Source of the DNA: Cylicocyclus nassatus
Lineage: Eukaryota > Nematoda > Chromadorea > Rhabditida > Strongylidae
Reading direction: 5' to 3'
DNA: 64,000 bases
Assembly: GCA_958299035.1 (NCBI GenBank)
Contig: CATQJL010000112.1
Location: 16,530,880 to 16,594,879, forward strand
Position 1 is the first letter of the stretch. Each line of letters opens with the position of its first letter. Made by a program: the position numbers and the translations under genes. This document shows, in pieces, positions 10,938 to 46,425 of the stretch. The notes under the pieces are model-generated. The model did not search any database. It had not been told where the DNA came from and was given only the letters and a program-made list of their open reading frames with translations.

Positions 10938-11356
10938 CTGAAAATGACATTCGCTTCAACTTATAATTTTGAAATGAAATTTTAAACTCTGTCTTATGGA
11001 TCAGGTTCAATGATACTAATAGTGATCTGCAGCAAATTTCGTTTACTTTTTTGATAAGCAGTATGGGATTCGAAATTTTGCTTGTATTATACTGATGGAT
11101 TCCATCCCCTCCCCCTCCTTCCAAAATTCTTAGGCAGAAGAAGAAGTATCTCTCCCAGTAGTCATCTCCATGAGCGAGATCCAGTCACTCAAGCGCTGAT
11201 TTCCCCAAGTAAACAGTAAGCTCTTGGTTGGACTGATGTCGGAAACGTATGTGTGAAAAGTTTGGTGCTGATCGGTCCGCACACAAGAATCTCCATAAAA
11301 CACGCACTAGCTGACAATGTACCAACAATTCATGTATCATACCCCAGAAATGTTTC

Positions 11357-17697: not shown

Positions 17698-18300
17698 GCC
17701 GGGTAAGGCAGCTAGTCTTATATATAAAGCTGAATGTCTGTTTGTATGTCTGTATGTATGTCTGTATGTATGTCTGTCTGTCTGTGCGTATGCTCCGAAT
17801 AGAAAATTCCATTTCTGAACGATCCGGACCAAACTTGGCACACATACACTTCGGGCCCCGGCGGGTGTCATAGGCTACTTTTCGTATCGATCGATATCGA
17901 TTTTATCGATTTTATGCAAAATTTAAGCTAAGGGGCTGGGAGTTGGCACAGGGGGGTGTGAGCATGGGGGTTCCGAATACAAGATTAGTTTTCAAAATCG
18001 TGCATTACTTTTATCGATTTTATGGATTTTTTTGCAAAGTTTGAGCTACGGGGCTGGTTGGCACAGGGGGGGGGGTAATCGAGCATGCTGATCACCCCCG
18101 TGGGGGTGATCAGCATGCTCGATTACACCCCTCTGCCAAATTCCAGCCCTCTAGCTCAAATTTTGCAAAAAGTCGATAAAATCAACATCAATCGATAACG
18201 AAAAGTGGACTGTGACACCCGCTGGGGCCCGAAGTGTATGTGTGCCAAGGTTGTTTCGGATAGGTTAAAAAATGGAATTTTCCGGGTATCCCAGCTAGTA
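17698..18300. repeat. Large inverted repeat with ATCGATTTTATCGAT motifs
   Basis: Left blocks (AAATTCCATTTCTGAACGAT, CACATACACTTCGGGCCCC, ATCGATTTTATCGATTTTAT) recur inverted on the right (GGGGCCCGAAGTGTATGTGT, AAAAAATGGAATTTTCC). The centre is a 52-base near-perfect palindrome at 18075-18126. A TGTATGTC microsatellite lies at 17738-17783. Its interior resembles the 118-bp unit of the array at 30.9-36 kb (shared ATCGATTTTATCGATTTT and GAGTTGG.ACAGGGGGGT). Confidence 0.65.
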
Positions 18301-19430: not shown

Positions 19431-20375
19431 GCACCGAGAACACTCCTACCTAATGCTTTCTAATCTCCTTTTATACATTTCTTAAAAGTAGTCCAAATTC
19501 CAGGAGATATCCACGACATTTTTGTTTGACTTATCGTCATCATAGTCCCAACTGTTCGTTAGCAATTTCGTCACTTTTTCATGCTGTTTTTCTTCGTTCT
19601 TTATGTATATATCTCAAGCAGAGTAAGGGTGCAATTGCTAAAGTTTAGGTAATCGGCGATAAACGTGTGTTTCTTGTGGTGGTTGGTGTGATACAATTGG
19701 CAAGGTTGTGGCAACCTTTTTAGATCTCTCATGAAGAAGCTTTTGGGATGCGTAATTGTTTACAACTTATTCGTGATAGTCATCATGACGCGATGAGTTT
19801 CAATGTCATGATTACAAGAGAATGAATAAGTCATTCCGAGTAGAAACAGTGCGCGCCTCTGCGAAGCAGAGGTGACGCTCCGGTGATATATAATAAGCGT
19901 TGCCGTTACGAAATTGCAGTGAGGAATGATTTACAATATTCTAAGCATATAATATCTGTTAGCGAGAGTGTTCGTTTCAACTAGGGGTGACTCTTCCGGC
20001 AACTTTGGAATGATTTGAGAAAGAATCTATGTTGGCGTAATTCTAACCTTTCTGTGGTGACCAGTGCGAGCCTCTGCGAAGCAGAGGCGAAGCACTGGTG
20101 GAAACATAAATTGATAAGATTTATCAAATTGAAACGTCTTCTAGCTTTGCAGCTTGGACAAATTCATCTCTCCTTGCGATGCCATGAACAAGTTCTGTGC
20201 CTACTCGTGAGCATTGCAATGTATGTGCCAGAGATGCTGATTTGTTAGAAATGACGTAAGATTTTAGAAAATTTGAACAAAATTTGGACGGAAGAAAAAC
20301 CAGGAATGAGAGTTGAATTACAGGACACATACATGAACAAGGATAAAACCATAACAAAAAATAGATCTCATGAAC
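19431..20375. other. No gene; two copies of a CCTCTGCGAAGCAGAGG hairpin
   Basis: The perfect hairpin CCTCTGCGAAGCAGAGG occurs near 19857 and again near 20072, with similar flanks. Otherwise no exon or known repeat. Confidence 0.45.
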
Positions 20376-20379
20376 TTAA

Positions 20380-20847
20380 AGGCAGTGTCCGGGCAAAAAG
20401 TAGTTTTTGAGATTTTGTGCGTACCCGGGCCTATTCACTATGCTAAATCCGAAAATCCACATTGGAAAGCGCGAGAACGGCCAAAAAGGGCTCTAGTGCA
20501 GGAGGGAAATCGGAAGTGGGCGGGGTCCTCCCCACTGTGAATTTCGCAGTCCCAGCTTCTGGAGCCATCTTTCCAATTCCTTTAGCGCCCTGAGATCTCC
20601 ACCGGCCAGGTGCAAATGCATGACTTGAAATCGGAACCGAGAAGTTCGCTCTGGAAGCTGGGAGCGTGAATTCACAGTGGGGAAAACCCCGCCCACTGTG
20701 AATCTTGAATCTGTGTGATTTCCCTCCCGTGTTAGAGCCGTTTTTCGCCGTTTTCGCTCTTCCAATGTGCATTTTCGGATTCAGCATAGCGAATAGGTCC
20801 GGGTAAGCACAAAATCTCAAGATCGAATTTTTGCCCGGACACTGCCT
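20380..20847. mobile_element. TTAA-flanked MITE
   Basis: TTAA (20376-20379), AGGCAGTGTCCGGGC at the left end, its complement GCCCGGACACTGCCT at the right end, then TTAA (20848-20851). The arms are inverted over most of the length (CGAAAATCCACATTGG against CCAATGTGCATTTTCGG). Typical of the window's TTAA family. Confidence 0.8.
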
Positions 20848-20851
20848 TTAA

Positions 20852-21584
20852 TGACCCAAGAGAAGTTAATTATACACTAGAAAGCGGTGATCACGGATTA
20901 CAGTACGGCTCAAAATTCGTCAAAATTTCATCGAATTTTACCGGAATTCACTGAATCGCGTCGTCGATATAGGTTTAAAGGACGAATTCCGAATCTAATG
21001 GTGTTAGATTCAGCTAGCAGAACGCATTTCCCGATATAAGTTCCCGTTTGTATACGATAGCTGCACGTCAGGAGGTCAGATTTACGAATCTTTTCGGATT
21101 TCCGCTTATGAAGTTCAACCGCATGATTCTTCCATTCTGCCCATTGCGTAAACACTGTAAGCGAAGATCTAGAAAAATTGTGAAATTTGCTACTCACTCT
21201 ATCCGAACGGGCATTTCAATAAATCAAAAATGCGCTTGAGCTCGAATGGTGCCCTTGGTTGAGAATTACGAAGACATGGCGATGCGACGCGGATTTCGGT
21301 GAACTACTGTACAGTTCGGCCCGACTTTTCTAAGATCATGTGGGGTACCAAAATGGATGCGAAGAGAGAAAGATCATGTTCTACAATTAGTTATCTGAAG
21401 TTGACTTTGGAACAACCATAGAAAACAGAAGATAGCTACATTCAAAAAACCCTTTGAATACCATTACAGTTTAAAAGATAAAGCTGCGTGTTAGCTGTTA
21501 TTTGTGGCTAGCCACAAATAACAGCTACAAAACCCTAGCTAGAGTTCTAGGAAAGAGAGCTCGTGAGTATGGTTTAAGAAGTGC
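20852..21584. other. No gene; 34-base perfect palindrome near 21496-21529
   Basis: No exon seen. AGCTGTTATTTGTGGCT followed directly by its complement AGCCACAAATAACAGCT forms a perfect palindrome. Confidence 0.5.
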
Positions 21585-21802
21585 ATGAATGCTAACATAA
21601 CTGTGCGGAAAGCGACAGACAGTGGATTCCACAGGACTGCCTCAAGAACAACAATGAATCACAGTTCTATGAGTGAGGGAACTTTTGCAATGCTGTCAGA
21701 AAATAACTTCTCTGTGCTTATTGCCATTTATACCTTTGCAGTCGGATTAGCGTTTGCAGTGATTTTCTTACTATCTTGTATGAGGAAGACTTATGGATGG
21801 TC
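21585..21802 (+). CDS. Possible single-pass membrane protein exon
   Basis: The frame holds one strong membrane segment (VLIAIYTFAVGLAFAVIFLL) followed by a positive CMRK stop-transfer. Downstream, the same frame runs into a repeat shared with 48541-48640, so the natural end is probably earlier. No family recognised, and it could be chance. Confidence 0.25.
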
Positions 21803-21925
21803 CGACAGTCCCCACGAACTAGGCGGTGCACACAGAATCTCCAGATTCACCAAGCACCCGGAGAGTTGGCACTCTCCGGGTGCTCGGTGGTCCCCTCCCC
21901 ATTAATGTCCCCCACTTTTATATAT
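21803..21925. repeat. Dispersed repeat, copy 1
   Basis: The stretch ending TGGTCCCCTCCCCATTAA and GTCCCCCA recurs at about 48541-48640 with CGGGTGCTCGATGGTCCCC. Confidence 0.6.
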
Positions 21926-21989
21926 ATGTTATATTGATAAAATCATCTAGTCAAGAACTCTTCTGTTAAGATTATTACAACAGGGTATG

Positions 21990-22125
21990 TTCCTGCGTTC
22001 CATAGCCCGCCATGCGTGCCATTGCACGCGCGAGCGTGCATTTGCACGAGTCGGGTAAGCCGTGCGTGCCATTGCACGCACTGCGGGCCATTGCACGCTT
22101 TGAGTGCAATAGGACGCACCTTCGA
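21990..22125. repeat. CCATTGCACG repeat cluster
   Basis: Several direct and inverted copies of GTGCCATTGCACG and GCGTGCA within about 130 bases. Non-coding. Confidence 0.5.
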
Positions 22126-22159
22126 TCTTTGCACTGAATGCAGATAAAAAGTCAAAACT

Positions 22160-23285
22160 TTCTATATGCATGCTAGCTCGTAATCGTAATCTTTACCCCA
22201 ATTTTGGACTCAATCGTATAGGTGTGAACCAATCTAATAGTTTTTGAAAAAGAATGGAGCTTGATATAAAAATTCAGAAAAAATGTGTTCAGACGCAGTA
22301 TGTATGATGAAATTTAAAAATATTATGGGTTGCCTTCTTAAACTTTCTATTTGATGCGAAGTTTTGGTGAATTGTAGGTGATTTTCAAAAAAATAGAATT
22401 TTCAGAAATTGGCAAAAACTTGGTTTTTCAGATAACGGTTTACGGTAAAGCTGGAGGTCTGCAATTTTGCATGCATACATCTAGTCTATGCCTAACTATG
22501 ATATTATTTTTTCAGAATTTTAGGATCACTCTGGAGCGAGTTCTAAAAAACCCGGTTCAAAAACACGCCATAACTCGAGAATGGGCGGAGCTAGGGGGGC
22601 GGGGCTATGACCAAAAAATTTTCCATGTCAAACTGGTCCGGGGGGAGCTTGGCCTGAGGGGAAGGGATTGATGCGGGGCCCGGTACGGCGAGGTAAAGAT
22701 TCCTGGTTGAGCTATTCAATTTTCCAATGGGTCTCATCCAATAAATAAGAGATTTTGCAATATATTGTATCATCGTGCAATATATTGCACAGCCTATAAT
22801 GGTGAATTTTCGCTGGTTAACGCGAATACATTGGGAGTGAAAAAATCACTTATTATTATGTAAGTGACGGACCAAAATTTCAAAAAAATTTTTTTTAAAT
22901 CGGGAAAAATTGGGGAATGTCGGGAAGAACAATGCAAAAGAGATTAGGACATGCTAGGGCCTTAATTGAAATAGTTAAGGCTTTTGAATAATGTTCAAAA
23001 CTGGTATGTTCCGAATGTTCAAAAAACTGTAAGGTAATACAAAAGTCTAGAGAAATAGGTAAGTGTTGGGAAGATAAGGCAAGAAGGCAAAAGGGTCTAA
23101 GAGATGCTATCGCCTTAGTTGGTGTATCTAAGGTTTGAGAAATAGTAGCTTGCAGATTTTGAATGATCGGGGACCATCAGTCGTTCTGGAAAACTTTTGA
23201 AATTTTTTTAGAATGTCTAGGAAAATAGGGGAATGTCAGAAGGATGAGAAGGGCCCTCATAAAGCATGTCAACGCCTGAAAGGTA
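22160..23285. other. No gene seen
   Basis: AT-rich flank downstream of the recombinase gene with no exon pattern or clear element end. If the recombinase unit is a mobile element, its left boundary may lie here. Confidence 0.3.
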
Positions 23286-23289
23286 TTTA

Positions 23290-23470
23290 GGTTTATGCAT
23301 ATACAGTATATACAAACACATAACTAATAACACAAATTAGCACATACAATACAATATATACAAACACATAACTAATAACACAAATTAGCACATATACAAT
23401 ATATACAAACACATAGCTAATAACAGAAATTAGCACATATACAATATATACAAACACATAACTAATAAAA
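23290..23470. repeat. About 48-bp tandem repeat, nearly 4 copies
   Basis: ATATACAAACACATAACTAA recurs at intervals of about 47-48 bases. It lies directly after the recombinase stop codon. Confidence 0.8.
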
Positions 23471-23474
23471 CAAG

Positions 23475-26400
23475 TTAAAGTTCAATCTCATCGGAGTCGG
23501 AGCTGTATGTGACAATCTGTGGCTCCCTTTCGGATTTTTGCACTAGTGCTTTGCTCTTCTTTTCATCTGATTCCTTCCTGAGGCTGCTCGTTTTGGAACG
23601 TTTCCTCGGCGATTGCTCAGCGTCTGATGTTGATTCCGATCTTTGTCGTACTGCATCTAAAATATGCTAGTCACCCACAAATTTGAGAGGAGTTAAATGT
23701 TATGTTGAAAAGTCCTCGACTCCTTTCCTGAAAGTTAATGCGTAACGCACCAGGGCGTGAAGAAGGCCCGGGCATTTGCTCCTCCGGCACGTCTGCAATT
23801 TCGTGCTCTTCCTCAGATTCAGAAGACACATCGTTAGAGTCTTCTAGTTCCAGCTCATCTACGACAATCTCGGGTGCAACATTTTTACAACGACGTGTCA
23901 AACTGAACCAGAATGCAGTAAGCAACCATGGAATGACGATGCCACTCACTTTGCAAGCTTGAACATGCCCTGTACTCGCCGAATTGTATCAAAATTCTCC
24001 GCCTCTTCCCTCTTGGCAAGCTGCCGAGCCTTCACATAACCATGAGCGCAACTGATCATGTACTCATTTTGATACGCTTTTAGTTGAATCTTTTGCGAAT
24101 GTGCTGAAATTTTAGATCTAATCGAAGGACATTAGCACTATAGTTGGTAGAGGTTAAAGTTAAGAATAACCTCTGTTTTAATGTACCATTTGCGTTTCCT
24201 TGACTATGTACATGGCTCAATCTTTGAACTTAGCATATAGCGTCGACAGAATCAATCACTTATTTGCGCACTAAAGACGTACACGACGATAACACATGGC
24301 TTGAACTGCAAGCGCGAAAGCATTTGGATTTGTTTGGAATGCAATAATTTAGAATGGCAAGCGATGAGGTGTAAGTGAAATTTGCGAATCAAAAACGATA
24401 ATTCTCTTTAATCCTCTGATTTTCCGTTGAACTTCAGCAAGCGCTATAACGGTATCTTAGCTTCGTTAACGCACCTGCCATTCTCGCCATATCCTTATCA
24501 GCGCCCTTCAGTTTCTCCATCTCCCGACGGTAGTAATCCTCATACTGTCGCGAAGCTACAGCGTGTCTTGTCTGATAACGAATTTAGAACTTCAGCTTCG
24601 CCTCATACAAAAATTCGTTCGTTACAAAAATTGTAAGATATACTGCTCACCATATTACATGAGAGGTGTAACTCTGTAAAGCCACTATCACGCAAAAATT
24701 GCTTCATCAAGTGCGAAACTGTTGACTTCTCCACAGGCTTTCCTCTATACTGAAGAAAGAACGGCGCATCAGGCTTTTTCATGTCTACCAGCTCGTGTTT
24801 TTGTATCACACTAAATGAATTTCAATAGTCTTACATGAAAACATGAGTAATGTAATGTAATGCAGCGTACAAATCTCTCAATTTTGTATAGTAATCGATC
24901 CACTTCTTCGATTTCTTGTCCAATACAAAATATTGACCTCCGTATGCTGTTTTTTGATAGGAAGCCCTGATTTTTGGGTAAGGGTAGCACCCTACCTGAA
25001 ACGTATACTTAACTTTATGAACAATCAAATGAGGAATTAAATCATTTGAATCAAGTTTACCCAGAGTGTTTCCGTGATCTTCTTTTTATTGCCTTCCTTT
25101 CCTTCGTCGTCCTCCCAATCTATGTTTATGCATTGCAATCCCGTAAAATCAATAGCTTGCCCGAACTTTGATACAGGCCTTTTCCTCATTTCAGGTGCAT
25201 GTATGCTTCCATACATCATTTTATAGATGACTTCATTTCTGCTGGTATTACAATGTACTATGTATGCACAGAGTGCACTAAATAGCAAAATCTTCATATG
25301 CTTGGATATCTTGACGTTTAACTGATTTAACTGACCCCATCACATAGTTGTATTGAGCGGGATATAACATTCCGTCTCGTTCGAACTTATCCATAATCTT
25401 GTCGACGCTCTTGGCAATCCCTCGATGATCAACAATAGCTCTTGTCACACAATACATTATATCGTCTTGCTAAAAAAAAAGGGTGAATATACGATGGACT
25501 TTATGATCATGCACAAATTTAATAAAGAAGCTTACACGTTTATCTTGTGGCACAATACCCTTCAGTGACATGGTTATCCTTTCTTCTTCGTTGTGTGATC
25601 TAAACTGATAAGCTATCTTTCTTTTGTATTGTTTTAGGTCTAGCACACGCTGTCGCCCTGCTCCTAAATGATTACATAGGTGTATGCATGCTTTATAGCT
25701 ATCCACGAAATCATAAAGTAAAAATTTACTTTTTTCTAGTTGGATCGACAAAAATCTCCAAAAAGAGGATACCGCCTTTGTTATCATCCTTCGTAGATCG
25801 AGCTTGACACCTTCTGCTTTTAAACGCTCCATATACGGTAAAAAGATTTCACTTGAGTATATGGCGTCGTCGACTGTAACGGTCTCTCCCATTCTGAATT
25901 TTAGATATTGTGCCATTTGACAACTGGCTGGAAGCTAACAAATTTTGGTTTAAGCACATAAACTCGAAGAAAACAATTTTGTTCTTTTTTTCTTGCAAAA
26001 AAAGCTGGAACGATACTGAATTTAACAAAAGTCTTCGTTATAAGATGAACTCGTCATAATTACCTCTGCCGAGATCGCATAGCTACAAGCATAAATCGGT
26101 CGATGTACTGTACATAGCCCCAAATGCCTCCCTTAGCAGGTTTTCCCGTATATTTCGAAATATTTGGCTAAATACATAGCATAAATATTATCTACCATAG
26201 GTATCATAATAATTTAAACGATACCAGTTTATCTTGAATACTTTGCGCAAATTGTTGCAGCAGCGGATGTGATTCTCGTACTACCTTGCGCCAAAATTTG
26301 AGATTCTTATCCAATTTTCGTTCTGTAACTGAATACATTTTTTGCTACTTTTACGTTCAAGAGCTTACCATGCTCGTTTTTTGGCGTGTAGTTTTGTTCG

Positions 26401-27946
26401 AAATAATTTGGGTCAAAGGAATCTAATTCATGATAGAACATATAATCCTTTTTCGGTGCCATTTTGAATATGTCATCAACATTTGCATCACCTTCAACGG
26501 AAGCATGTTTCGAAATGAAAATTCTAGGGCACAAGGAATTTAGATTTTGTACTAACCTGAATATTGTTCGTCGCCAAAACAAGTGTATAATAAATGTCTG
26601 TCCACACGCGGTGATGCGAAAGTTACGGGTAACACAGGGGGCGAAATCTCCTCTATTGATACTTCCGCAGAACTAGGGCTGTCCAATTGCACTCGATCTG
26701 TTTCCACTGTATTCGTCGGTGCAACGTCTTTTGCCAGCTTCTGTGAAGACGTCGCAACAGGCAATCCCCTTTTTGTCTTCTGTTTGATTTGAGAAAGAGG
26801 AGTGTTGGATTCTACGTTGCTTGCGTTGTGCTTTTTGGATATAGATATAGGCCGTCCGCGCAGGGCGCGGAGAGTGCGCAAGGTGTGTATTGCACGTCAC
26901 TCCTCTTTCCTCGTGCACTCTCGCCGCCTATTTTCTCTGCGCTTCTTCCAGTTCGTGAACTGCCTTCGATGTACGCAGCAGCGTTGCTCTCCGCGTGCGG
27001 TGCGGACAGCCTATAATTGCGTTTGAATCTGTTGGTAAATTTATTTACATACTCTATCCGACGGAATTGCAAAAGATTTGCACATACCCAATCTTCGTTC
27101 GCCTGTGAACGTCCCTCTGCAATAGAACTTCTGTTTGCATCTATTCCCGCCTGCGCTTCCGCTACAATCTCTCCACGGACTCGACATCTTGCTACCTGTG
27201 AAAAAGCAGTTTCAAGCAGTATTCTGCAACGCAATCAGTGGTCATTATTTGCACTTACGGCCTCATTAACCAACATCTCCACCTCGTCCTTGCGCACATA
27301 TTTGTATCGATCAATGCGTTTATCCTCATAACCCTAAAATCCGTTTAACTTGCAAAATTAGCTATTAATAAAGATCAAAATAAAAGACTGTTGATGCAGT
27401 AAGTAAACTTACACCATCCGTCGGTATACCGCATTTCCTGAGTTGATGTACAAAGTCATTATACACTCCCCATTCGCCTTCCGTCACTGGTCTGCGAACA
27501 TCGTTTAGGTTTATCTTTGCTCTTCCCATATACTGTGTGATGCCACGCCCGAGCTGCATAACAATCTAAATTGTATTTAAAGCAATAGCACAAGGAATAG
27601 GTCGTGTATAACGTACCTTATAATCCAATGTATTTTTTCTAAGAAGTTCACTATGCGCTCTTCTAAGATGTTCGGCAAATCGGTATTCGCCTTGTTTGCC
27701 ACATACAACACAGTAATTCGCACCCTCATTGGGATTCTTAGGATAAAACATGTCTGCAAAAAATTTTTTTGTGATGACAAACATATCATAAAATTGGACT
27801 GTGATACTTCACAAACCTTCGTGCAACGTCTCAGGTGTATACCTTATGATGTGCTCGCTCTTGAGTCTATCTAGATTTGCCTTCGCTGCATTTCCCACTT
27901 CTAGAACTTCGTGATATCTAGAGGATGAACGAAGACGGGAAGCCAT
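23475..27946 (-). CDS. Tyrosine recombinase with N-terminal C2H2 finger
   Basis: About 17 exons can be chained by splice sites and phase: 27946-27817, 27753-27617, 27553-27413, 27333-27259, 27195-27049, 26779-26557, ~26523-26369, 26328-26225, 25927-25536, 25469-25344, 25300-25061, 24995-24871, 24810-24651, 24571-24475, 24103-23950, 23902-23751, 23656-23475. Roughly 900 codons. Order: a finger (CVVCGKQGEYRFAEHLRRAH) in exon 2; a helical part like a core-binding domain (25927-25536); the catalytic domain; an acidic and basic tail. Catalytic residues: Arg in TSRNEVIYKM (codon 25240-25238), Arg in TRHAVAS (24568-24566), His in AHSQKIQLKAY (24101-24099) and, nine residues on, Tyr (24074-24072), the spacing of XerD-type enzymes. 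The position three before the second Arg is Asn, not the usual His. Such enzymes cut and rejoin DNA through a phosphotyrosine link. Junctions 26557/26523 and 26225/25927 are uncertain: the first shows a phase conflict and the second needs an alternative donor. Confidence 0.83.
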
Positions 27947-27974
27947 TTTTAATACCGATCTAGCAAGAATTCTA

Positions 27975-27990
27975 ATGCTTCTAGAAAGAA
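27975..27990 (-). promoter_or_regulatory. 3' splice site upstream of the recombinase start, possible trans-splice site
   Basis: TTTCTTTCTAG ends at about 27981, 35 bases before the recombinase ATG and 155 bases after the upstream gene's stop. In nematodes such an acceptor without a donor can receive a spliced leader, which would resolve a two-gene transcript. This is an inference from position and motif. Confidence 0.4.
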
Positions 27991-28135
27991 AGAGATTTTG
28001 GCTTTAAGAATATATTTGCTGAATATGTGGAAAGTAATCAAAAGATAATGTACATTTCAGGCATGCAGGGAAGAAAAATGGAAAAACTTTTTATCGTAAC
28101 TGCTAACAAATATTAACAAAAATTTCAAATAACAA

Positions 28136-30748
28136 CTACTCAATTGCTACAATACTAATCGGTTCCTTAAGCGATTCTCTAATTAGTTTGATTCTTTGCT
28201 CACACCTCCTATTTAACCTATGCAATTGACGGTGGTGATAAAAAATGGCAAAAATAATAAGCATAAGCACAATATAAATAAATAAAATAGGAAATGTTTT
28301 ACTGTACTTGCATCCATCATCTTCTGCAAAATTCAGGTTGCGATCATTGTCTTCATTGTGCTGATTATCAGGCTTCGTAGGCGTATGATTTGACTAAAAG
28401 TTATAAAAGCGCGTGTGATCTCATGGTGTAAGTAAAATATATATATATAATATATATTTACTAACAGGTAAAGCTATCGCTAACTCCATGGTCAAGTTGC
28501 CTGTCTTCACTCGCGAAGCTACCTTCATCGAACCTATATGCAGTTCTGCTCCTTGCGGTATTTCCACCACGATTATAGGCTTCTCAATTTTGAGTGATTG
28601 AAACGCTTCATTGTCTTGTTTTTTATAGAACATGCGTTTCATTCGCGTAATCACCACCACTGTCTTCAACAGTGGGACGATCAGCGTAAACTAAAACATA
28701 TGTACTAAGATTTTCTAACACTCTGTGTAGCATGGACAAGTCTTTGAAACTCACTTCATCATTGGTGGAATTGTGCTCGACCACAGTGCAACCATCTCGA
28801 TTACCAGAATGTAAACCGCATGTAGTTTGCGGTTTTGTCTTGCACAGAAGAGTGGACGATAAGGTACTGCACTCATCAACGTTGCTTACTTCTTCGAGCG
28901 CACTCACATTGCTCACTAGCATCGATGTTGGTATGATGTAATGAGCGCCAAGGACATGGCTTGAGTACTTCTTCATATTTTCACTAAATCCGCCAAGTGG
29001 TACAATTCGTGTGAGGTACCCTACATTTTTTTCCAAACTGACTGGATAGCAAATCTAAACTATTTTATTTATTTGGTGTATAACACTTGCAGGACCGCTC
29101 ACTTTCACTTCCATGACACGTCTGTTCATCGATAGTACCGTTGCTCGCAATGTATCACCAGCGACATCAAATCTACTCTTGAGAACGGAAGCATTGAACC
29201 TTTCCAAACCCATCAGATTTGCAATGGCGGAAAGAAGATTGCTCTCACCATGATGGTTGATCACACGATGTGTTACGCGACCGTAATTGAATAGCCCGGT
29301 GAGAGCGGCTTCTATCGCCATTAGCAATCGTGATCTGACTTGAGCGAACACGAATTCAAAACGAATCCTAAAGTGCTACATGGATATTTTTTTATACAAA
29401 AAGTTGAAAAATCGGCAAGCATGACTTAGCACTCACATGCAAGTTTTCAATTCCAAAAATTCCGCCAAATTGTGCATTTGCGATTTCATCTCAAGGACTT
29501 GTTTCATCAGTCGCTGTAATTTTATAGCATCTGGTGACAAAAAGCTAAAACTATGCAATAGCACAAACTTTTTGCTGATGCTCCTCCTCCGAATATTTGT
29601 AGATCAAGGCTTTAATTTCACGGTATGCAAGCTCTCCAAGACCGACCCCTACCCCAAAAGCGACGATTCCTATTCCAGGAAAAAACTCAACCTGTCCCGT
29701 ACTAAAGCATGCGTGTACTTTTTTCACATAGTTCATTCAAAACGCTTACTTGTAATGAGGTGTTATTCTTCTGTATTTGTTGAATGTTGCTTCCATTTCT
29801 TGGAGATGCAGATTTAAAGCGTCCTCTTTCATTGTTCTATATACCTGAATACATTTTAAAAGTTTGTAACACTCAACTGCCACTCTCAAATGCTAAAATC
29901 AAAATTCTTACCCTCATTCTTAACTCCTCATTGAGAGTACTACTAATGTTCAAAGATTTCTCAAATGGTTCGAGTACTTGGTCAAACATTCTTCCGTCAA
30001 TGTAGCTCGAGTAATCTGTAAAAATAATAGATTGCTAGGACGTCCATATGATTACATGTGCCTTCTGTCTCACTTACATAAAGTTAGCTCGAGGTGAATA
30101 ATTGAGATTTCGTTCGGCCGCTTCGCTTGGACCTTGCACTCGTTCCCGAACGCATCGTCTAATCATTTTCCCGCGCTTGAGCGTGATAAGAGGCTTAAGG
30201 CAAAATTTGCTTGTTGAATAAAGCGTGGGAATGGTCAGAAAACACCAGGTTCGCAAACGCGACGCGAGCGTGTCCTCCGAAGCGGCCAAGCCGAAACCGC
30301 TCGAGTCGGGTTCACACCATATGATACAGAGGATATGTTTGTGATAGCGCCATAGAGCTAATTTAGACAAGTCACGTAATTTAGCTTCTTTACAACTCTG
30401 ATAAGGTTGGTCAGCTTTGGAAATGCAGAATTTTCAACACCTGCCGACGCTATAGTAGCAACGTGCATTACAATTGTCCAGGGCTACTATCTACCTTTCA
30501 ATCCAAACGATTTAATCAAAATACATACCTAGCACGACGATGCCACATTCTCGTTCTTCTTTTGCAGCGAATCCAACCACCTCACCGTGTATTCCGTTGT
30601 CATGAAAAGCCTTCAGAGTAACTCCGTCTAATATTGGCAATCCTGTGGTTGAGGCGCCGTCAATCTTAGAAGCTAAGAAGACTCCTTGAACTCTATTCAG
30701 AAAACCGGCAGCAATTATGTAAAAAATAGTACTAGATAGAAACGCCAT
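28136..30748 (-). CDS. Type I membrane glycoprotein, class I fusogen-like
   Basis: Ten exons can be chained: 30748-30529, 30158-30078, 30015-29912, 29844-29750, 29701-29569, 29530-29437, 29367-29103, 29054-28671, 28614-28466, 28393-28136; about 594 codons. It starts with a signal peptide (MAFLSSTIFYIIAAGFLNRV). Exon 5 holds a glycine-rich hydrophobic stretch (GIGIVAFGVGVGLGE) followed at once by heptad-like helix in exons 5-6 (LQRLMKQVLEMKSQMHNLAE). Exon 8 is cysteine-rich. The last exon has a membrane anchor (ILFIYIVLMLIIFAIF) and a basic tail of about 40 residues. Seven N-X-S/T sequons are visible (NIS, NAS, NVS, NST, NLS, NLT, NHT). This is the plan of class I viral fusion proteins (F or Env type), which merge membranes; the function is inferred. 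No furin site is evident before the hydrophobic stretch. The exon 5/6 junction is out of phase by one base next to an A-run, so a sequencing indel or early decay is possible. The recombinase starts 189 bases downstream. Confidence 0.68.
30085..30305. repeat. Inverted repeat spanning intron 1 and exon 2 of the glycoprotein gene
   Basis: TTCGTTCGGCCGCTTCG near 30105 and CGAAGCGGCCAAGCCGAAA near 30275 are imperfect inverted copies, flanked by CTCGAGG and CGCTCGAG. It may be a small element that contributed exon sequence, or a chance structure. Confidence 0.35.
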
Positions 30749-30875
30749 TTAATATCTGAAACTATCGTTGTAATGAAAAAAACATGCAAAAAATCCAAAA
30801 CACATGACCATAAATAACTTGCAAGTTGATGAATTCCATGGTGCGATAAGCATAAAGCACTAAGTTTGCGAGAAG

Positions 30876-33800
30876 TCGATGAAATTGATATAAAATTGAG
30901 TATTTAGAAAAATGAAAACTGCTATTGCTACCAAGGTTCACTCCTACCCCTCTGTATCAATCACCTTTCAGCTCCTTCAACGCAAGTTTCCAAAAATCGA
31001 TAAAATCGATATGATAATTTTCTGACTAATCAGCAAAATCTGATACCATTCCACATCACTTCGCAGCGCTTCAAAACGTAAATTGCAAAAATCGATAAAA
31101 TCAGTGAATAAGTGAAGAATCTTATAAATGAAAATCATTACTGGAATCAAGATTCAGTCTTACCCCCCCCCTGTACCAACTCTCAGCTTTCTGGCTAGAA
31201 ATGCACAAAAAATCGATAAAATCGATGAATGAATGAAGAATCTCATAAATGAATATCATTACTAGAATCAAGATGCAGTCATACCCCCCTGTACCAATTC
31301 TCAGCTTCCACGTCAGAAATGCTCAAAAAATCGATAAAATCGATGAATAAATGAAGAATTTCATAAATGAATATCATTGCTGGAATCAAGATTCAGTTTT
31401 ACCCCTCTGTACCAACTCTCAGCTTTCTGGCTAGAAATGCTCAAAAAATCGATAAAATCGATGAATAAATGAAGAATCTCATAAATGAATATCATTACTG
31501 GAATCAAGATACAGTCATACCCCCCTGTACCAACTCTCAGCTTTCTGGCTAGAAATGCTCAAAAAATCGATAAAATCGATGAATAAATGAAGAATCATAT
31601 AAATGAATATCATTGCTAGAATCAAGATTCAGTTTGTACCAACTCTCAGCTTTCTGGCTAGAAATGCTCAAAAAATCGATAAAATCGATGAATAAATGAA
31701 GAATCTCATAAATGAATATCATTACTAGAATCAAGATACAGTCATACCCCCCTCTACCAACTCTCAGCTTTCTGGCTAGAAATGCTCAAAAAATCGATAA
31801 AATCGATAAATAAATGAAGAATCTCATAAATGAATATCATTACTAGAATCAAGATTCAGTCTTACCCCTCTGTACCAACTCTAAGCTTTCTGGCTAGAAA
31901 TGCTAAAAAAATCGATAAAATCGATGAATAAATGAAGAATCTCATAAATGAATATCATTACTGGAATCAAGATTCAGTTTTACCCCTCTGTACCAACTCT
32001 CAGCTTTCTGGCTAGAAATGCTCAAAAAATCGATAAAATCGATGAATAAATGAAGAATTATATAAATGAATATCATTGCTGGAATCAAGATTCAGTTTTA
32101 CCCCCCTGTACCAACTTTCAGCTTTCTGGCTAGAAATGCTCAAAAAATCGATAAAATCGATGAATAAATGAAGAATCTCATAAATGAATGTCATTACTAG
32201 AATCAAGATACAGTCTTACCCCCCTGTACCAACTCTCAGCTTTCTGGCTAGAAATGCTCAAAAAATCGATAAAATCGATGAATAAATGAAGAATCTCATA
32301 AATGAATGTCATTACTAGAATCAAGATACAGTCTTACCCCCCCTGTACCAACTCTCAGCTTTCTGGTCAGAAATGCTCAAAAAATCAATAAAATCGATGA
32401 ATAAATGAAGAATCTTATAAATGAATATCATTACTAGAATCAAGATACAGTCATACCCCCCTCTACCAACTCTCAGCTTTCTGGCTAGAAATGCTCAAAA
32501 AATCGATAAAATCGATAAATAAATGAAGAATCTCATAAATGAATATCATTACTAGAATCAAGATTCAGTCTTACCCCTCTGTACCAACTCTAAGCTTTCT
32601 GGCTAGAAATGCTAAAAAAATCGATAAAATCGATGAATAAATGAAGAATCTCATAAATGAATATCATTACTGGAATCAAGATTCAGTTTTACCCCTCTGT
32701 ACCAACTCTCAGCTTTCTGGCTAGAAATGCTCAAAAAATCGATAAAATCGATGAATAAATGAAGAATTATATAAATGAATATCATTGCTGGAATCAAGAT
32801 TCAGTTTTACCCCCCTGTACCAACTTTCAGCTTTCTGGCTAGAAATGCTCAAAAAATCGATAAAATCGATGAATAAATGAAGAATCTCATAAATGAATGT
32901 CATTACTAGAATCAAGATACAGTCTTACCCCCCCTGTACCAACTCTCAGCTTTCTGGTCAGAAATGCTCAAAAAATCAATAAACTCGATGAATAAATGAA
33001 CAATCTTATAAATGAATATCATTACTAGAATCAAGATACAGTCATACCCCCCTCTACCAACTCTCAGCTTTCTGGCTAGAAATGCTCAAAAAATCGATAA
33101 AATCGATAAATAAATGAAGAATCTCATAAATGAATATCATTACTAGAATCAAGATACAGTCTTACCCCTCTGTACCAACTCTAAGCTTTCTGGCTAGAAA
33201 TGCTAAAAAATCGATAAAATCGATGAATAAATGAAGAATCTCATAAATGAATATCATTACTGGAATCAAGATTCAGTTTTACCCCTCTGTACCAACTCTC
33301 AGCTTTCTGGCTAGAAATGCTCAAAAAATCGATAAAATCGATGAATAAATGAAGAATCTCATAAATGAATGTCATTACTAGAATCAAGATACAGTCTTAC
33401 CCCCCTGTACCAACTCTCAGCTTTCTGGTCAGAATTGCTCAAAAAATCAATAAAATCGATGTATAAATGAAGAATCTCATAAATGAATATCATTACTAGA
33501 ATCAAGATACAGTCATACCTCCCTGTACCAATTCTCAGCTTTCAGGTCAGAAATGCTCAAAAAATCGATAAAATCGATGAATAAATGAAGAATCTCATAA
33601 ATGAATATCATTACTGGAATCAAGATTCAGTTTTACCCCTCTGTACCAACTCTCAGCTTTCTGGCTAGAAATGCTCAAAAAATCGATAAAATCGATGAAT
33701 AAATGAAGAATCTCATAAATGAATGTCATTACTAGAATCAAGATACAGTCTTACCCCCCTGTACCAACTCTCAGCTTTCTGGTCAGAATTGCTCAAAAAA

Positions 33801-35967
33801 TCAATAAAATCGATGAATAGATGAAGAATCTCATAAATGAATGTCATTACTAGAATCAAGATACAGTCTTACCCCCCTGTACCAACTCTCAGCTTTCTGG
33901 TCAGAATTGCTCAAAAAATCAATAAAATCGATGTATAAATGAAGAATCTCATAAATGAATATCATTACTAGAATCAAGATACAGTCATACCTCCCTGTAC
34001 CAATTCTCAGCTTTCAGGTCAGAAATGCTCAAAAAATCGATAAAATCGATGAATAAATGAAGAATCTCATAAATGAATCTCATTACTAGAATCAAGATTC
34101 AGTTTTACCCCCCTGTACCAACTCTCAGCTTTCTGGCTAGAAATGCTCAAAAAATCGATAAAATCGATGAATAAATGAAGAATCTCATAAATGAATGTCA
34201 TTACTAGAATCAAGATACAGTCTAACCCCCCTGTACCAACTCTCAGCTTTCTGGTCAGAAATGCTCAAAAAATCAATAAAATCGATGAATAAATGAACAA
34301 TCTTATAAATGAATATCATTACTAGAATCAAGATACAGTCATACCCCCCTCTACCAACTCTCAGCTTTCTGGCTAGAAATGCTCAAAAAATCGATAAAAT
34401 CGATAAATAAATGAAGAATCTCATAAATGAATATCATTACTAGAATCAAGATACAGTCTTACCCCTCTGTACCAACTCTAAGCTTTCTGGCTAGAAATGC
34501 TAAAAAATCGATAAAATCGATGAATAAATGAAGAATCTCATAAATGAATATCATTACTGGAATCAAGATTCAGTTTTACCCCTCTGTACCAACTCTCAGC
34601 TTTCTGGCTAGAAATGCTCAAAAAATCGATAAAATCGATGAATAAATGAAGAATCTCATAAATGAATGTCATTACTAGAATCAAGATACAGTCTTACCCC
34701 CCTGTACCAACTCTCAGCTTTCTGGTCAGAATTGCTCAAAAAATCAATAAAATCGATGTATAAATGAAGAATCTCATAAATGAATATCATTACTAGAATC
34801 AAGATACAGTCATACCTCCCTGTACCAATTCTCAGCTTTCAGGTCAGAAATGCTCAAAAAATCGATAAAATCGATGAATAAATGAAGAATCTCATAAATG
34901 AATATCATTACTGGAATCAAGATTCAGTTTTACCCCTCTGTACCAACTCTCAGCTTTCTGGCTAGAAATGCTCAAAAAATCGATAAAATCGATGAATAAA
35001 TGAAGAATCTCATAAATGAATGTCATTACTAGAATCAAGATACAGTCTTACCCCCCTGTACCAACTCTCAGCTTTCTGGTCAGAATTGCTCAAAAAATCA
35101 ATAAAATCGATGAATAGATGAAGAATCTCATAAATGAATGTCATTACTAGAATCAAGATACAGTCTTACCCCCCTGTACCAACTCTCAGCTTTCTGGTCA
35201 GAATTGCTCAAAAAATCAATAAAATCGATGTATAAATGAAGAATCTCATAAATGAATATCATTACTAGAATCAAGATACAGTCATACCTCCCTGTACCAA
35301 TTCTCAGCTTTCAGGTCAGAAATGCTCAAAAAATCGATAAAATCGATGAATAAATGAAGAATCTCATAAATGAATCTCATTACTAGAATCAAGATTCAGT
35401 TTTACCCCCCTGTACCAACTCTCAGCTTTCTGGCTAGAAATGCTCAAAAAATCGATAAAATCGATGAATAAATGAAGAATCTCATAAATGAATGTCATTA
35501 CTAGAATCAAGATACAGTCTAACCCCCCTGTACCAACTCTCAGCTTTCTGGTCAGAATTGCTCAAAAAATCGATAAAATCGATGAATAAATGAAGAATCT
35601 CATAAATGAATATCATTACTAGAATCAAGATACAGTCTTATCCCTCTGTACCAACTCTCAGCTTTCTGGCTAGAAACGCTCAAAAAATCGATAAAATCGA
35701 TGAATAAATGAAGAATCTCATAAATGAATATCATTACTAGAATCAAGATACAGTCTTACCCCCCTGTACCAACTCTCAGCTTTCTGGTCAGAAATGCTCA
35801 AAAAATCGATAAAATCGATAAATAAATGAAGAATCTCATAAATGAATATCATTACTAGAATCAAGATACAGTCTTACCCCCCTGTACCAACTCCCAGCTT
35901 TCTGGTCAGAAATGCTCAAAAAATCAATAAAATCGATGAATAAATGAAGAATCTCATAAATGAATAT
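30876..35967. repeat. 118-bp satellite array, about 43 copies
   Basis: The unit contains CAAAAAATCGATAAAATCGA, ATGAAGAATCTCATAAATGA and ACCCCCCTGTACCAACTCTC. The period is 118 bases, with a 109-base unit near 31.6 kb. Units near the left edge (30.88-31.2 kb) are the most diverged. Marked variants (CCCCCCTCTACC with AATCGATAAATAAA) recur at about 31741, 32450, 33041 and 34338, close to 6, 5 and 11 units apart, so multi-unit blocks have been copied. Each unit holds two ATCGAT motifs spaced by AAA. The frames in it are not genes. Confidence 0.97.
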
Positions 35968-36662
35968 CAGGGAAGGTCAGCGTAAAAATTTAAAGAAACA
36001 GACCATAAATTCACTCTGTTATGTTGCCAAATTCGTTGCTTCCCAAAAAATCTGTTACGAAAGGCGTTTTAGTGTGGTTTAAGAGGATTTGTGCGAAAAA
36101 TCTATTATTTTCTCTTTATTCTAAGAGAACTTTGAATGAAAATGATAATTTTATTTGTTACTCTGTTAAATCTGTTACGAAAGGCGTTGTAGTGTGGTTT
36201 AAGAGGATTTGTGCGAAAAATCTATTATTTTCTCTTTATTCTAAGAGAACTTTGAATGAAAATGATAATTTTATTTGCTACTCTGTTAAATCTGTTACGA
36301 AAGGCGTTGTAGTGTGGTTTAAGAGGATTTGTGCGAAAAATCTATTATTTTCTCTTTATTCTAAGAGAACTTTGAATGAAAATGATAATTTTATTTGCTA
36401 CTCTGTTAAATCTGTTATGAAAGGCGTTGTAGTGTGGTTTAAGAGGATTTGTGCGAAAAATCTATTATTTTCTCTTTATTCTAAGAGAACTTTGAATGAA
36501 AATGATAATTTTATTTGCTACTCTGTTAAATCTGTTACGAAAGGCGTTGTAGTGTGGTTTAAGAGGATTTGTGCGAAAAATCTATTATTTTCTCTTTATT
36601 CTAAGAAAACTTTGAATAAAAATGATAATTTTATTTTTTCTCGCCACTCATTGGCTCAATAG
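35968..36662 (+). repeat. 120-bp tandem repeat (5 copies) with an incidental open frame
   Basis: Five copies start at 36049, 36169, 36289, 36409 and 36529, with exactly 120 bases per unit. Because 120 is a multiple of three, an ATG frame at 36021-36662 stays open and encodes five 40-residue repeats (GVVVWFKRICAKNLLFSLYS). It abuts the 118-bp array directly. It has no signal or known domain. Copies are almost identical in DNA as well as protein, which argues for recent amplification rather than protein selection. Confidence 0.85.
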
Positions 36663-40508: not shown

Positions 40509-41920
40509 ATGAACAATACTCCAAAAGTGGTCAATAATTCGCAATCTAACAGCTGCGCAACTCATTCTATTGCTCCTAGATACAGAACTCGCTCTATTTC
40601 CTCTTCCAATCCTACCAATACTAAATATTAGGTTGAACCAAAAGTTCGTTCGCACCGTTTTCAAAAAATCATAACTTCTTTCCATCACGTCGGTTTTGCG
40701 CAACTTAAATTCTATCAGAAAGCGTAAGGCATGTAGTTTCCAATAGTCCCCTGGTGACCTTCCATCATGTTCAGATTGTAGAGATAAAAATGAAAGAACG
40801 AAAACATCCGAAATTCGGAATTTTTGAGAAAAAATTCTAAAAATCTAGAAACTGCGCGATAAAATCCAGAAAAGCCACTATCCTAATTTTTCTTATATTA
40901 GATTACTAACTAAGTTAAATTTGTGCTGATCGAGCCTTTTTTCAAAAGTTATGATTTTTTGAAAAAAATGCCGAAAAATCAAGTTCTTAGGAATTCTTAG
41001 GAAAGCGATTTTTCGGAATTTCTTTCAAAAAATTATAACTTTAGAAAGAAGAGCTCGATCAGCACAAACTTAACTCAGTTAGTAATCAAATATAAGAAAA
41101 ATTACGATAGCGGCTTTTCTGGATTTTATCGCGCAGTTTCTAGATTTTTAGAATTTTTTCTCAAAAGTTCCGAATTTCGGATGTTTTCGTTCTTTCATTT
41201 TTATCTCTGCAATCTGAACATGATGGAAGGTCTACAGGGGACTATTGGAAACTACATGCTTTACGCTTTCAGATAAAATTTAAATTGCGCAAAACCGACG
41301 TGACGGAAAGAAGTTATGATATTTGGGAAATGATGCGAACGAACTTTCGGTTCAACCTGATAGATTCGCAGATTATCGATCACTTAGACACTGCATTTGG
41401 AAAACTATTCTTGGCATCCTATTCTAACCATCTACCAACATTTTCTGGTGATCTTGGCGCAAAGTGCCTAGACCAAATTATCAATGTATTCAATGAAATT
41501 GGGAACATAATGAATCTAAGCGAGGATAAGATGGTTAAGCTGCTACCAGCGCATCTAACGGGTACAGCTAGAGCAGTTTTTGATACTTTTGAGAAGTCCG
41601 TAAAACTAAATTGGCGTTCCGCAACTGCTAAACTGACGGAACATTTCTACAACGACCAGTACCAAAATATGGCGCGTGATAAATTGATGAAAATATCAAT
41701 GCACCCTAACAAGTCGCCATTTATGTTCGCAAGTAGACTCAAAAGTGAGATTGCGGACGCTTATCCAGGCGAAACTTTCAAAGATGAGCACGAATTTCTA
41801 AAGATCATGATTTTCAACAATGGTCTTTCTTACAACATAAAACAAGAATTAAAACTTTTTGGTCCGCTCAACCCAAACTTTAGTGAGTTAGTAAAGATGC
41901 TGAGCGAATTTGGGAACTAA
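40509..41920 (+). pseudogene. Gag-like gene of a Ty3/gypsy-like retroelement, split by a mariner foldback
   Basis: An N-terminal frame (from 40509, MNNTPKVVNNSQ, polar) runs into a foldback element at 40628. The gag core resumes at 41363 (IIDHLDTAFGKLFLASYSNH) and runs to 41920 with helical motifs typical of the retrotransposon gag fold (KLLPAHLTGTARAVFDTFEK). The methionine at 41285 belongs to the inserted element and is not the gag start. Frames on the two sides of the insert do not match exactly, so the gene is broken. Further basic, asparagine-rich remnants lie at 42050-42430. Gag would form the particle shell; this copy is inactive. Confidence 0.7.
40628..41360. mobile_element. Mariner-like foldback element with TA duplication
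   Basis: The ends TTAGGTTGAACCAAAAGTTC and GAACTTTCGGTTCAACCTGA are inverted, flanked by TA at 40626-40627 and 41361-41362. Arms of about 350 bases are nearly perfect inverted copies around a centre near 40995. No transposase. It interrupts the gag-like gene, so it arrived after the retroelement. Confidence 0.8.
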
Positions 41921-42450
41921 TCAAAACCGGCGAAGTGGCTTTTGACCCTTCTCTTTTGAGTTCAAAAATGGACAGGATTCTCAGTGGCTTGAGAATCCCT
42001 TTCCTCAAGTCAATAAAACTTATCATCTAAATCAAAGTCGCTTAAGCTATGATTCACGCCAATATAGCCGCGCCCATCACATAACAATCATATTACCGTA
42101 ACCAATCGCGCTCTCCGCCACGCTATAACAATAACAGCTATAACCGTAATCGCTCTAGGCATGTAAGGTTGGCGCCAGAGCCTAGTTACCAACAGTGGCA
42201 ATCTAATAGCAACAGTTATCAGTCTAGATTTCCTTCGCGTAATAGACATTGTCTTCGAGAAGATATCAAGATAATTCCAATCGTTTTCGCAACATTAATC
42301 TCGTAATCAATTCATTTTCAACCAAAATTTTCACAATACCTCTCGTTCACCAAATCGTAACCGTAATAACAACCGAAATTCTTCTCGAAGGGGTAATTTG
42401 CATGCAGTTAATTCTATAACAGCTAATTTTCCACAGATGTCACTAATTCT

Positions 42451-43989
42451 GTGAATTCCCTCTTTCTCGTCGCCATAATTGCGCTAATTTTGCCTACTTC
42501 CTCCGCATTCTCAATGGACCCTCAATCGTGTTTATCTGGTAGATCAGGCTGGCCTGTAGCCTTTCCTGAAACTATTTCTTGAGCGAAACCAACCAACTAA
42601 ACTAACGTATTGCTAACACGGCTTCTGTTTTCGTAAAAAAAAAAACAGAACCAGCTACGCTAAGTGCATTTCACTGTTTTAATAAGACTAGGAAAGTTTG
42701 CGCGTCATCTTATCTACACATTTCTTTCTCGCTAAATAGCGATGAGGAGTTTATATCTCCCATCGATCCAGTCCTCTGCCATAATATTGCAAAAACTAAA
42801 AAGTACCTTGGTGAACCGTTGCGCATATTTTCGCCTAAAGTATTCGGTTCACAGCGTCCTTTCATTATTCTTATCCCTGGTTCATTGGTCAAAAGTGCAC
42901 AGTCACCACAAATATTTATGTAGAAGAAGGCGAAATTGCCACTTTTGATGGTGACCAATTGCTAGGACAGTTTGCCGACATGGCGAATTGCACTCTTAGC
43001 CATGCTGTCAACTGTCCCATGGTACCTAGTTTGGAAGTCAAAAGACGCTCAAATTGCTTGTAAGTTTGTAAAAGCTATTGACAGTATCGCGTATGTCACA
43101 ACAAATCACATTCTTTTTGAGGCAATACAATCCGCATTCACATACAAGGGCGTTTTCTTTGAATAATCACAGCTGACAAAGTGGTGTTTGTCCGAAAACG
43201 CTATTGCAATGGACAATGGCGTATTCATCTTGCTTCCAGAACTTTTGGGAGAAGATCCTCGCACAATTTTTGATAGTAACATAACTCTAGTGCGAGAAAT
43301 AAACGAAAAGCACTTCAACTTCTCCAAAAGCTTTCTAATTTACGATGTTGACACTACCTACACTCATAAAATACGCAGTGCTTATTCATCACATGGCAAT
43401 ATTTTTAACTTCTAGCAATGTCACTATTCTTTCATCAATACTTTTGAAATCAAAATCGCTTCCAATCAACCAAGTGAAACCGCTGATCAGAGCAAAACGA
43501 TCTAGCGATAACTCAAAACCCGCGCATAGGACAATTATCATTTCTGCTATAATCGCAGAGCATATTGCATTGAATTCACGCATATTGCATTGAATTCACC
43601 TCCAGTATCCAGCGCAACAGTCTGAATTGAATACCAACCTGCAGTAGCTTGAATTCAAGCTTGACGAGGTGATTCAGCGCGACTTTTCAATCATGTGTGA
43701 GCGAATTTGCGTCTTCAATAATTTTTAGATTTTAACTATCAAAAGTATGCGAAAAGCGATCCTACAAGTGCTGCTCGAATATTACTCAGCAGAGACGATA
43801 TTTTCGCTATTTCTGCTGGGGATATTTTGATGATTTCTTAGTGTAAAACTATCCAGATTGATAAGATTTATCCGGACCATAAAGTGGATGGCAATTGCTA
43901 TGTAGATACTCCGGTATGTGTTGGGAAAACTTTATTTTTCGTCCAACCAGGCACACGTGATCTCAACACCACACCTTCTTTTGCTGACT
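42451..43989 (+). pseudogene. Envelope-like glycoprotein ORF, N-terminal part (broken)
   Basis: It starts with a signal-peptide-like stretch (LFLVAIIALILPTSSAF) and continues through several frames broken by stops and shifts, with cysteines and sequons (for example HFNFSKSF, LNTTPSFADC near the end). Unlike gag or pol, this composition suggests a secreted ectodomain. It stops making sense at 43990. The matching continuation with a membrane anchor is on the opposite strand at 46393-45920. I call it envelope-like from signal peptide, cysteines, sequons and anchor, not from a recognised family. Inactive. Confidence 0.5.
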
Positions 43990-44002
43990 GTGGTATTTAC
44001 CA

Positions 44003-44727
44003 TTAGGGATGTCTAGGTATCTTGGTGATGCTAGCTATCTTTTCTGGATTTAGTCTTGTTCCGCTCTTACTTATAAGAACTCCTAAGTATGGAACTTCTT
44101 CTTGCATAAAAGAGCATTTTTCCGCTGTGAATTTCATGGCAAAATTTGCAATGCCTTGCAAAACTTCTTCCAGATTACGAAAATGGTCACCTATGGAATG
44201 ACTGGCGGTAATGATATCATCCAAATAGGCGAAACAGCAAGCTTTCAATTCTCTTGTCAAGTCTCTCTTATACTAGGGGCACTCACCATGTGCCATTACA
44301 GTGAAGAAAAAAACCAAAAATGAGGAAAATGCAGTTCTCTCTTTGTGCTTTTCTTCGAGAGGGATTTGAAAAAAACCACTTTTGAAGTCCAGACTGTAAA
44401 TTTCTTCACCGCTTGCTAAATCAATGATATCTTGAATATGCTGGCAGTAAGTTTCATTTTCAGTTATAGCGTTAATTTGGCGATAGTCTACTGTAGAACG
44501 CCACTGATTTGTTGAAGGCTTTTCACCAAAACAATAGGTGAAGCGAATTTACTAGTGCTCGGTTCTATACGCGTGCGGAGCATTTCCTCAATTTGTCTTT
44601 TGATTTCTTGACGCTTTTCTAAAGGTACTCTGTAAGGACGCTGTCTAGGAGCTGTTGCATGCGGAACAAACTTGATTTTGTGAGAAATAGGACCTGTGTA
44701 ACTCCCTAAATTTCCATCCGGTCCCAC
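44003..44727 (-). pseudogene. Reverse transcriptase, Ty3/gypsy type, frameshifted
   Basis: Three frames carry in order PYRVPLEKRQEIKRQIEEML, VDYRQIN, SLDFKSGFFQIPL, KERTAF, FAYLDDIITAS (catalytic pair in YLDD) and the thumb-side VPYLGVLISKSG. The region between KERTAF and YLDD is shortened and shifted, so this copy cannot be active. Confidence 0.88.
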
Positions 44728-46393: not shown

Positions 46394-46425
46394 ACCACGC
46401 TTTTCGTATGTCGCCGCTCCTTTGA

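Follow-up and report, generated by a model that had tools for sequence, protein, structure and literature searches.

A membrane-protein gene linked to a putative, divergent tyrosine recombinase gene in Cylicocyclus nassatus: a candidate low-copy mobile unit of strongyloid nematodes

A 64,000-nucleotide stretch of the Cylicocyclus nassatus genome (contig CATQJL010000112.1, positions 16,530,880 to 16,594,879, forward strand; hereafter the window) was analysed for a pair of minus-strand genes at positions 23475-30748, one encoding an orphan membrane protein (GP, the membrane glycoprotein of a preliminary description made from the sequence alone) and the other a putative zinc-finger tyrosine recombinase (YR). 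Both genes are intact and spliced, with every exon open in phase and GT-AG boundaries at all 25 introns. GP runs from an ATG at 30748 to a stop at 28136 (1677 coding nucleotides) and YR from an ATG at 27946 to a stop at 23475 (2718 coding nucleotides), which leaves 189 bases between them; reading phase, introns and gap all agree with the two spliced genes first described. Eight distinct relatives were obtained from three protein searches, of which the one with GP as query was limited to scoring the 8000 candidates with most words in common. Every relative belongs to a strongyloid nematode: C. nassatus (P0001, P0002, P0006 and P0007), Necator americanus (P0003 and P0008), Strongylus vulgaris (P0004) and Ancylostoma ceylanicum (P0005). 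Deposited proteins matched seven of the nine GP exons (all but exons 5 and 9) and five of five YR blocks at E<=1e-3, and relatives were used to set the boundaries of YR exon 12 (from 25277), GP exon 6 (to 29103) and GP exon 7 (from 29054). Acceptor-like splice sites lie upstream of the GP and YR ATGs alike, in keeping with the "operon-like" arrangement proposed for the pair; the other mark of such an arrangement, SL2-type UAYYUU motifs in the 189-base gap, did not rise above chance (P=0.43).

Table 1. Features of the GP-YR locus and of the surrounding window (window coordinates)
Feature	Position	Strand	Evidence or remark
GP gene: secreted, single-anchor orphan membrane protein, 9 exons, 558 aa	28136..30748	-	Open exons, 8 GT-AG introns; 7/9 exons match P0001, P0002, P0006 or P0007
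GP exon 4: Gly-rich hydrophobic stretch, fusion-peptide-like or glycine-zipper-like	29569..29701	-	Kyte-Doolittle (KD) mean 1.70; 26 residues aligned with P0001 at 58% identity
GP exon 9: transmembrane anchor with short basic tail	28136..28393	-	KD mean 2.84; no deposited-relative match at E<=1e-3
Intergenic gap, 189 bases	27947..28135		Acceptor-like TTCAG and GATAAA; U-rich motif not significant
YR gene: putative C2H2 zinc-finger tyrosine recombinase, 18 exons, 905 aa	23475..27946	-	Gene model; PF00589 and TIGR02224 below cut-off; profile score
YR exon 2: C2H2-type zinc finger, C-x2-C...H-x4-H	27617..27753	-	Sub-threshold zf-BED, E=0.047; P0003 and P0004 share the pattern, P0005 part of it
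YR exon 12: box I, catalytic Arg (HCNTSRNE; Arg 25240-25238)	25061..25277	-	Start set by relatives; motif in 5/7 aligned sequences, the other two without the region
YR exon 15: box II TRHxxA (Arg 24568-24566)	24475..24571	-	TRH or SRH in 6/7 aligned sequences; P0005 without
YR exon 16: His 24101-24099 and probable nucleophile Tyr 24074-24072	23950..24103	-	His in 6/7, Tyr in 7/7 aligned sequences
45-bp tandem repeat, x3.9	23298..23477		Overlaps YR stop codon; may be a flank of the element
118-bp satellite, about 41 copies	31087..35969		Starts about 340 bases upstream of GP ATG
gag	41144-41917
Reverse transcriptase	44006-44548
Weak aspartyl protease	45442-45987
Weak H2C2 integrase	46740-47357		Lies with the long terminal repeat (LTR) retroelement pieces

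Judged from its sequence, the YR product is best identified as a tyrosine recombinase, an identification for which no single line of evidence was decisive and which was made because convergent, if weak, remote matches coincide with a conserved set of residues, R...RH...H...Y. The core of the window YR matched a single Pfam family, Phage_integrase (PF00589; E=9.8e-4, 19.4 bits against a cut-off of 27.1), which was found in one of the five family members tested; another match among the five was to DUF3431, at 0.013. In NCBIfam, the four families that matched any of the five members were all tyrosine recombinases, TIGR02224 XerC being found in three of them (best E=2.9e-4, below cut-off). The curated cut-offs of the PF00589 and XerC models are set for closer members. 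When a profile built from seven YR sequences was compared with eleven reference recombinases (IntA being excluded since its gene was cut), a score of 27.8 was obtained, as against a maximum of 17.2 in 60 column shuffles, with an hhalign P-value of 0.0063, and in the comparison with XerD the Arg-His, His and Tyr were co-aligned; a version with four references was weaker. The catalytic residues stand in the order Arg (box I), Arg (box II), His and Tyr, as had been described, and all four could be placed (Table 1). Over the seven aligned sequences the box-I Arg is kept in five, the second Arg in six, the His in six and the Tyr in all seven; P0002 and P0005 are without the box-I region, and P0005 is also without box II and carries a Tyr in place of the His. 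At the HxxR His of the canonical tetrad, the window YR, P0001, P0002 and P0003 have Asn instead. The zinc finger previously noted in the recombinase gene was recovered in exon 2. A sequence search of the PDB with YR returned a designed filament (E=5.8e-5, over a helical stretch) and unrelated chains, and no YR relative was found in viral contigs by a scan that rests on two peptide patterns. By eye, YR intron 5 holds an apparent GC-rich inverted pair at 26780-27087, resembling a small miniature inverted-repeat transposable element insertion.

Hydropathy analysis of GP recovered the signal-peptide-like leader (best 19-residue KD mean 1.56), the single anchor and the hydrophobic Gly-rich stretch on which its preliminary description was built, the leader and anchor being called by hydropathy only. 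The glycines of the Gly-rich stretch are kept in P0001 (GIGIVAFGVGVGLG versus GLGLIAFGIGIGIG). Two other attributes were not borne out: the six sequons within the exons, compared with 3.5 in shuffles (P=0.12), do not support the label "sequon-rich", and a simple heptad count, highest in exon 5 at 0.80 with exons 7, 4 and 6 close behind at 0.70-0.77, failed to single out exon 5 as a coiled coil next to the Gly-rich stretch. None of the nine GP exons matched a Pfam family above cut-off, the sub-threshold matches being DUF6056, Renin_r, 8xMP and Surfac_D-trimer only, and the GP part of P0001 gave only sub-threshold BT1 and NEMO. A 194-position GP profile found no match below E=0.49 among PDB sequences, and the two-pattern scan of viral contigs yielded no GP relative. 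A structure model from AlphaFold was mostly helical and of low confidence (predicted local distance difference test, pLDDT, 36.8), with long helices around the Gly-rich segment. No basic cleavage site precedes the Gly-rich stretch in the window, P0001 or P0002 (PHYNTGQVEFF, PHYNTAQVTFF and PHYSTGQLEFF, respectively). Because Pfam, the PDB and viral contigs offered no relative, no cleavage site was seen and the model is not trustworthy, the term "virus-type" as applied to GP is a likeness of architecture and not homology. As regards the layout of a class I fusion protein, a leader and a single C-terminal anchor are present by hydropathy; as to a trimeric coiled-coil core, helices are predicted at the low confidence given above, and the heptad count does not discriminate. 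GP is a possible membrane fusogen. That it is instead no envelope protein, and represents some other membrane-active or receptor-like helical protein beside the recombinase, is a serious if tentative alternative, compatible with the other readings of the locus discussed below. The long helices predicted with low confidence around the Gly-rich hydrophobic segment, the missing cleavage site in all three sequences and the outcome of the viral-contig scan would suit such a protein, but an envelope would equally well have such a leader, one anchor at the C-terminus and a short tail.

The relatives allowed the linkage of the two genes to be assessed. With YR queries six relatives were found, two of which (P0001 and P0002) also carry GP, and both relatives obtained with the GP query contain YR sequence, P0006 over only 44 residues (39% identity, E about 5e-5 to 5e-7) and P0007 over 65 residues (52% identity). 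Both GP and YR are therefore represented in four gene models of C. nassatus, of which P0001, P0002 and P0007 lie on one chromosome-scale contig (93.4 Mb) and P0006 on another (107.7 Mb). A chance neighbourhood of GP and YR was considered and ruled out, since the two share deposited gene models in this species. The models from the other three species (P0003, P0004, P0005 and P0008) have YR without GP. The first Met of P0004 is the homologue of the window YR Met, and therefore any GP at that locus would be a separate gene. An unlinked occurrence of GP and YR, which would speak against a unit, was not observed, the four models from other species holding no GP and their neighbours being unread. 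With P0001 as reference, the best local GP identity was 88% over 16% of the query for P0006 and 93% over 10% for P0007, and 47% for P0002; P0007 and P0001 also share 94% identity across 78 residues at the N-terminus of a further gene, that of a SET protein, and most blocks of the window genes are 37-82% identical to their relatives. This SET gene, which the preliminary description had not foreseen, was recognised in Pfam as a SET domain following YR in P0001 (E=7.3e-6) and P0003 (E=3.1e-12), and the N-terminal part of the SET protein is present in P0007 and P0008. The protein or its N-terminal part thus follows YR in four of the eight relatives (two from C. nassatus and both from N. americanus). 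Compared with the PDB, P0001 gave weak matches to SET-domain chains only, mostly KMT5A/SETD8 (E 0.09-0.6).

The reading that we favour, on a fairly even balance of evidence, is that the unit is a mobile DNA element, present in strongyloid nematodes at low copy number, with a divergent tyrosine recombinase and with GP and sometimes SET as cargo. Its dispersal is suggested because copies lie on two contigs and short stretches of them are 88-94% alike. In such an element YR would bind the ends, with the zinc finger helping, and would cut with its Tyr nucleophile; the unit could then be excised as a circle and integrated elsewhere, as proposed for Cryptons. GP, a membrane protein, may be cargo that helps the element to spread or persist, perhaps by acting as a fusogen, and the SET protein may act on chromatin. 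We infer mobility, the circular intermediate and the cargo roles of GP and SET from the features described above.

Several observations weigh against this reading. As regards the recombinase, its Pfam and NCBIfam matches all fall below curated cut-offs; PF00589 was not found at E<=1 in whole P0001-P0005 or P0008, and exon pieces did not recover it either; the hhalign probability of the YR profile was only 5.9% (24% in global mode); single-protein profile comparisons gave no separation from five controls; PHROGs returned seven weak families and no integrase; and fold searches of a poor AlphaFold model of the Necator YR relative (pLDDT 47.5), by Foldseek against the PDB, in a second look and against BFVD, had no recombinase among the matches listed. 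As regards the unit, the evidence for linkage comes from gene models as deposited; no SET gene was detected in the window, where the best tblastn match had E=4.6; high identity between copies is confined to short stretches; and the case for mobility is built on the gene models, the catalytic residues, the linkage and the dispersal of copies. The copies on two contigs could also be members of an ordinary gene family. An alternative, which we regard as rather unlikely, is a host gene cluster: GP, YR and SET would be strongyloid genes of an ordinary or domesticated kind that have stayed neighbours in an operon-like arrangement, have been duplicated with the genome and are now immobile. Operons are common in nematodes. 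The genes are intact with many introns, acceptor-like sites precede both ATGs, and the 37-82% identity of most blocks to relatives suggests long selection. The short stretches of high identity on two contigs are less readily accommodated, together with the shortened P0006 and P0007 models, though these may be mis-predicted, and YR has kept its catalytic residues, unlike the domesticated Cryptons listed in the account of PMC3212892, which lost theirs.

The surroundings of the pair were surveyed for element ends and for further genes. The repeat units of the 118-bp satellite upstream of GP and of the 45-bp array at the YR stop codon differ, and comparison of the flanks (20000-23475 versus 30740-31300) gave no clear common repeat apart from the arrays; weak matches of 31163-31229 to 17896-18183 (73-77% over 56-69 bases) are satellite-like. 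A 120-bp array follows the 118-bp satellite at 36048-36636. Inspection covered 25 of 66 inverted-repeat pairs, and no RNA genes were found in the window. Pfam was run on 30 of the 104 open reading frames of at least 85 codons, outside the GP and YR exons, a scan that genes with short exons would escape, and clear matches were limited to an anc-1 spectrin repeat and to domains of LTR retroelements, all others being sub-threshold. The former lies in a minus-strand reading frame at 9657-10955 (ANC-1 spectrin-like repeat, PF24611, E=1.4e-28), probably an exon of a host nuclear-anchorage gene, and the latter are broken LTR-retroelement pieces at 41144-47357 (Table 1), to which the reverse transcriptase at 44.0-44.5 kb belongs, rather than to YR.

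The same scan bears on whether the pair is a remnant of a larger endogenous DNA virus, nimavirus- or nudivirus-like, in which YR served as integrase and GP as envelope, the other genes being lost or outside the window. According to PMC10871703, as far as its account goes, tyrosine recombinases are able to integrate large DNA viruses into animal genomes, the endogenous nimaviruses of crustaceans being integrated into host repeats by such enzymes, and the majaniviral ones typically have a C2H2 domain. The layout of GP is envelope-like, and the top BFVD match of the YR model was an uncharacterised protein of virus NIOZ-UU159, at a non-significant E=0.01 and from a poor model. Nimaviruses, however, are large multi-gene DNA viruses, and no further viral gene was recognised in the window: the 30 reading frames scanned, short exons not being covered, held no capsid, polymerase or packaging gene beside the anc-1 repeat, the LTR-retroelement domains and sub-threshold matches, and Pfam found no viral domain in the eight relatives. 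No nimaviral core genes turned up in these general Pfam scans, no search with nimavirus profiles having been made. A viral remnant appears improbable. Of the earlier suggestion of a new enveloped, recombinase-driven element or endogenised virus, the linkage of YR with GP stands, envelope function and movement between cells are conjectural, and no further viral gene was recognised among the reading frames scanned.

Among known systems, the Cryptons resemble the unit in being tyrosine-recombinase DNA elements without a reverse transcriptase, for which PMC3212892 gives circular excision and integration as the proposed route. The present family differs in the Asn at the HxxR His, which departs from the R-H-R-Y tetrad, and in its linked GP and sometimes SET genes. 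Cargo as such is not new, since the same account describes some Cryptons with an extra C48-peptidase gene. In a survey of tyrosine-recombinase elements in nematodes and outgroups (PMC4157794), as far as it describes them, one Crypton was reported, in a sea anemone, a Nasonia match was judged to be contamination, and lenient Crypton-like matches had conflicting classification. The PAT, DIRS and Ngaro elements share with the present unit a tyrosine recombinase in nematodes, but no reverse transcriptase, RNase H or methyltransferase domain was found in the window exons or in the relatives given to Pfam, and the SET protein of the YR relatives is of a different kind from the methyltransferase of those elements. 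Short terminal direct repeats of 4-6 bp are a criterion for Cryptons. Nematode Mavericks are DNA elements with a fusogen, a retroviral-type integrase, and polymerase and capsid genes; the likeness is that of a nematode DNA element suspected of an envelope gene, but no PolB, retroviral-type integrase, capsid or ATPase of Maverick type was seen in the 30 long reading frames scanned here. The Atlas virus of A. ceylanicum is likewise a mobile element of a strongyloid worm with an env-type gene; it is described in PMC9094657 as a belpaovirus retroelement with a class II Gc, whereas GP matched no known family and the enzyme linked to it is a tyrosine recombinase. Giant Gypsy-like elements of planarians with an env-type region are described in PMC6431247.

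As far as their descriptions go, none of the systems compared joins a tyrosine recombinase to an envelope-type gene and a SET gene, and the titles and abstract beginnings of the literature matches listed held no report of a tyrosine-recombinase element with an envelope-type gene. It is conceivable, though we think it unlikely, that this is the first tyrosine-recombinase DNA transposon with its own membrane fusogen, some copies adding a chromatin methyltransferase: a capsid-free, enveloped element passing between cells or worms, unlike Cryptons, DIRS and Mavericks. Strongyloid worms, which include hookworms and horse strongyles, appear to hold a lineage of tyrosine recombinases with linked GP and SET genes. 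If GP fuses membranes, the unit would offer DNA transposons a direct route of horizontal transfer in animals; if it does not, the unit would still be a new example of a recombinase element with several genes as cargo.

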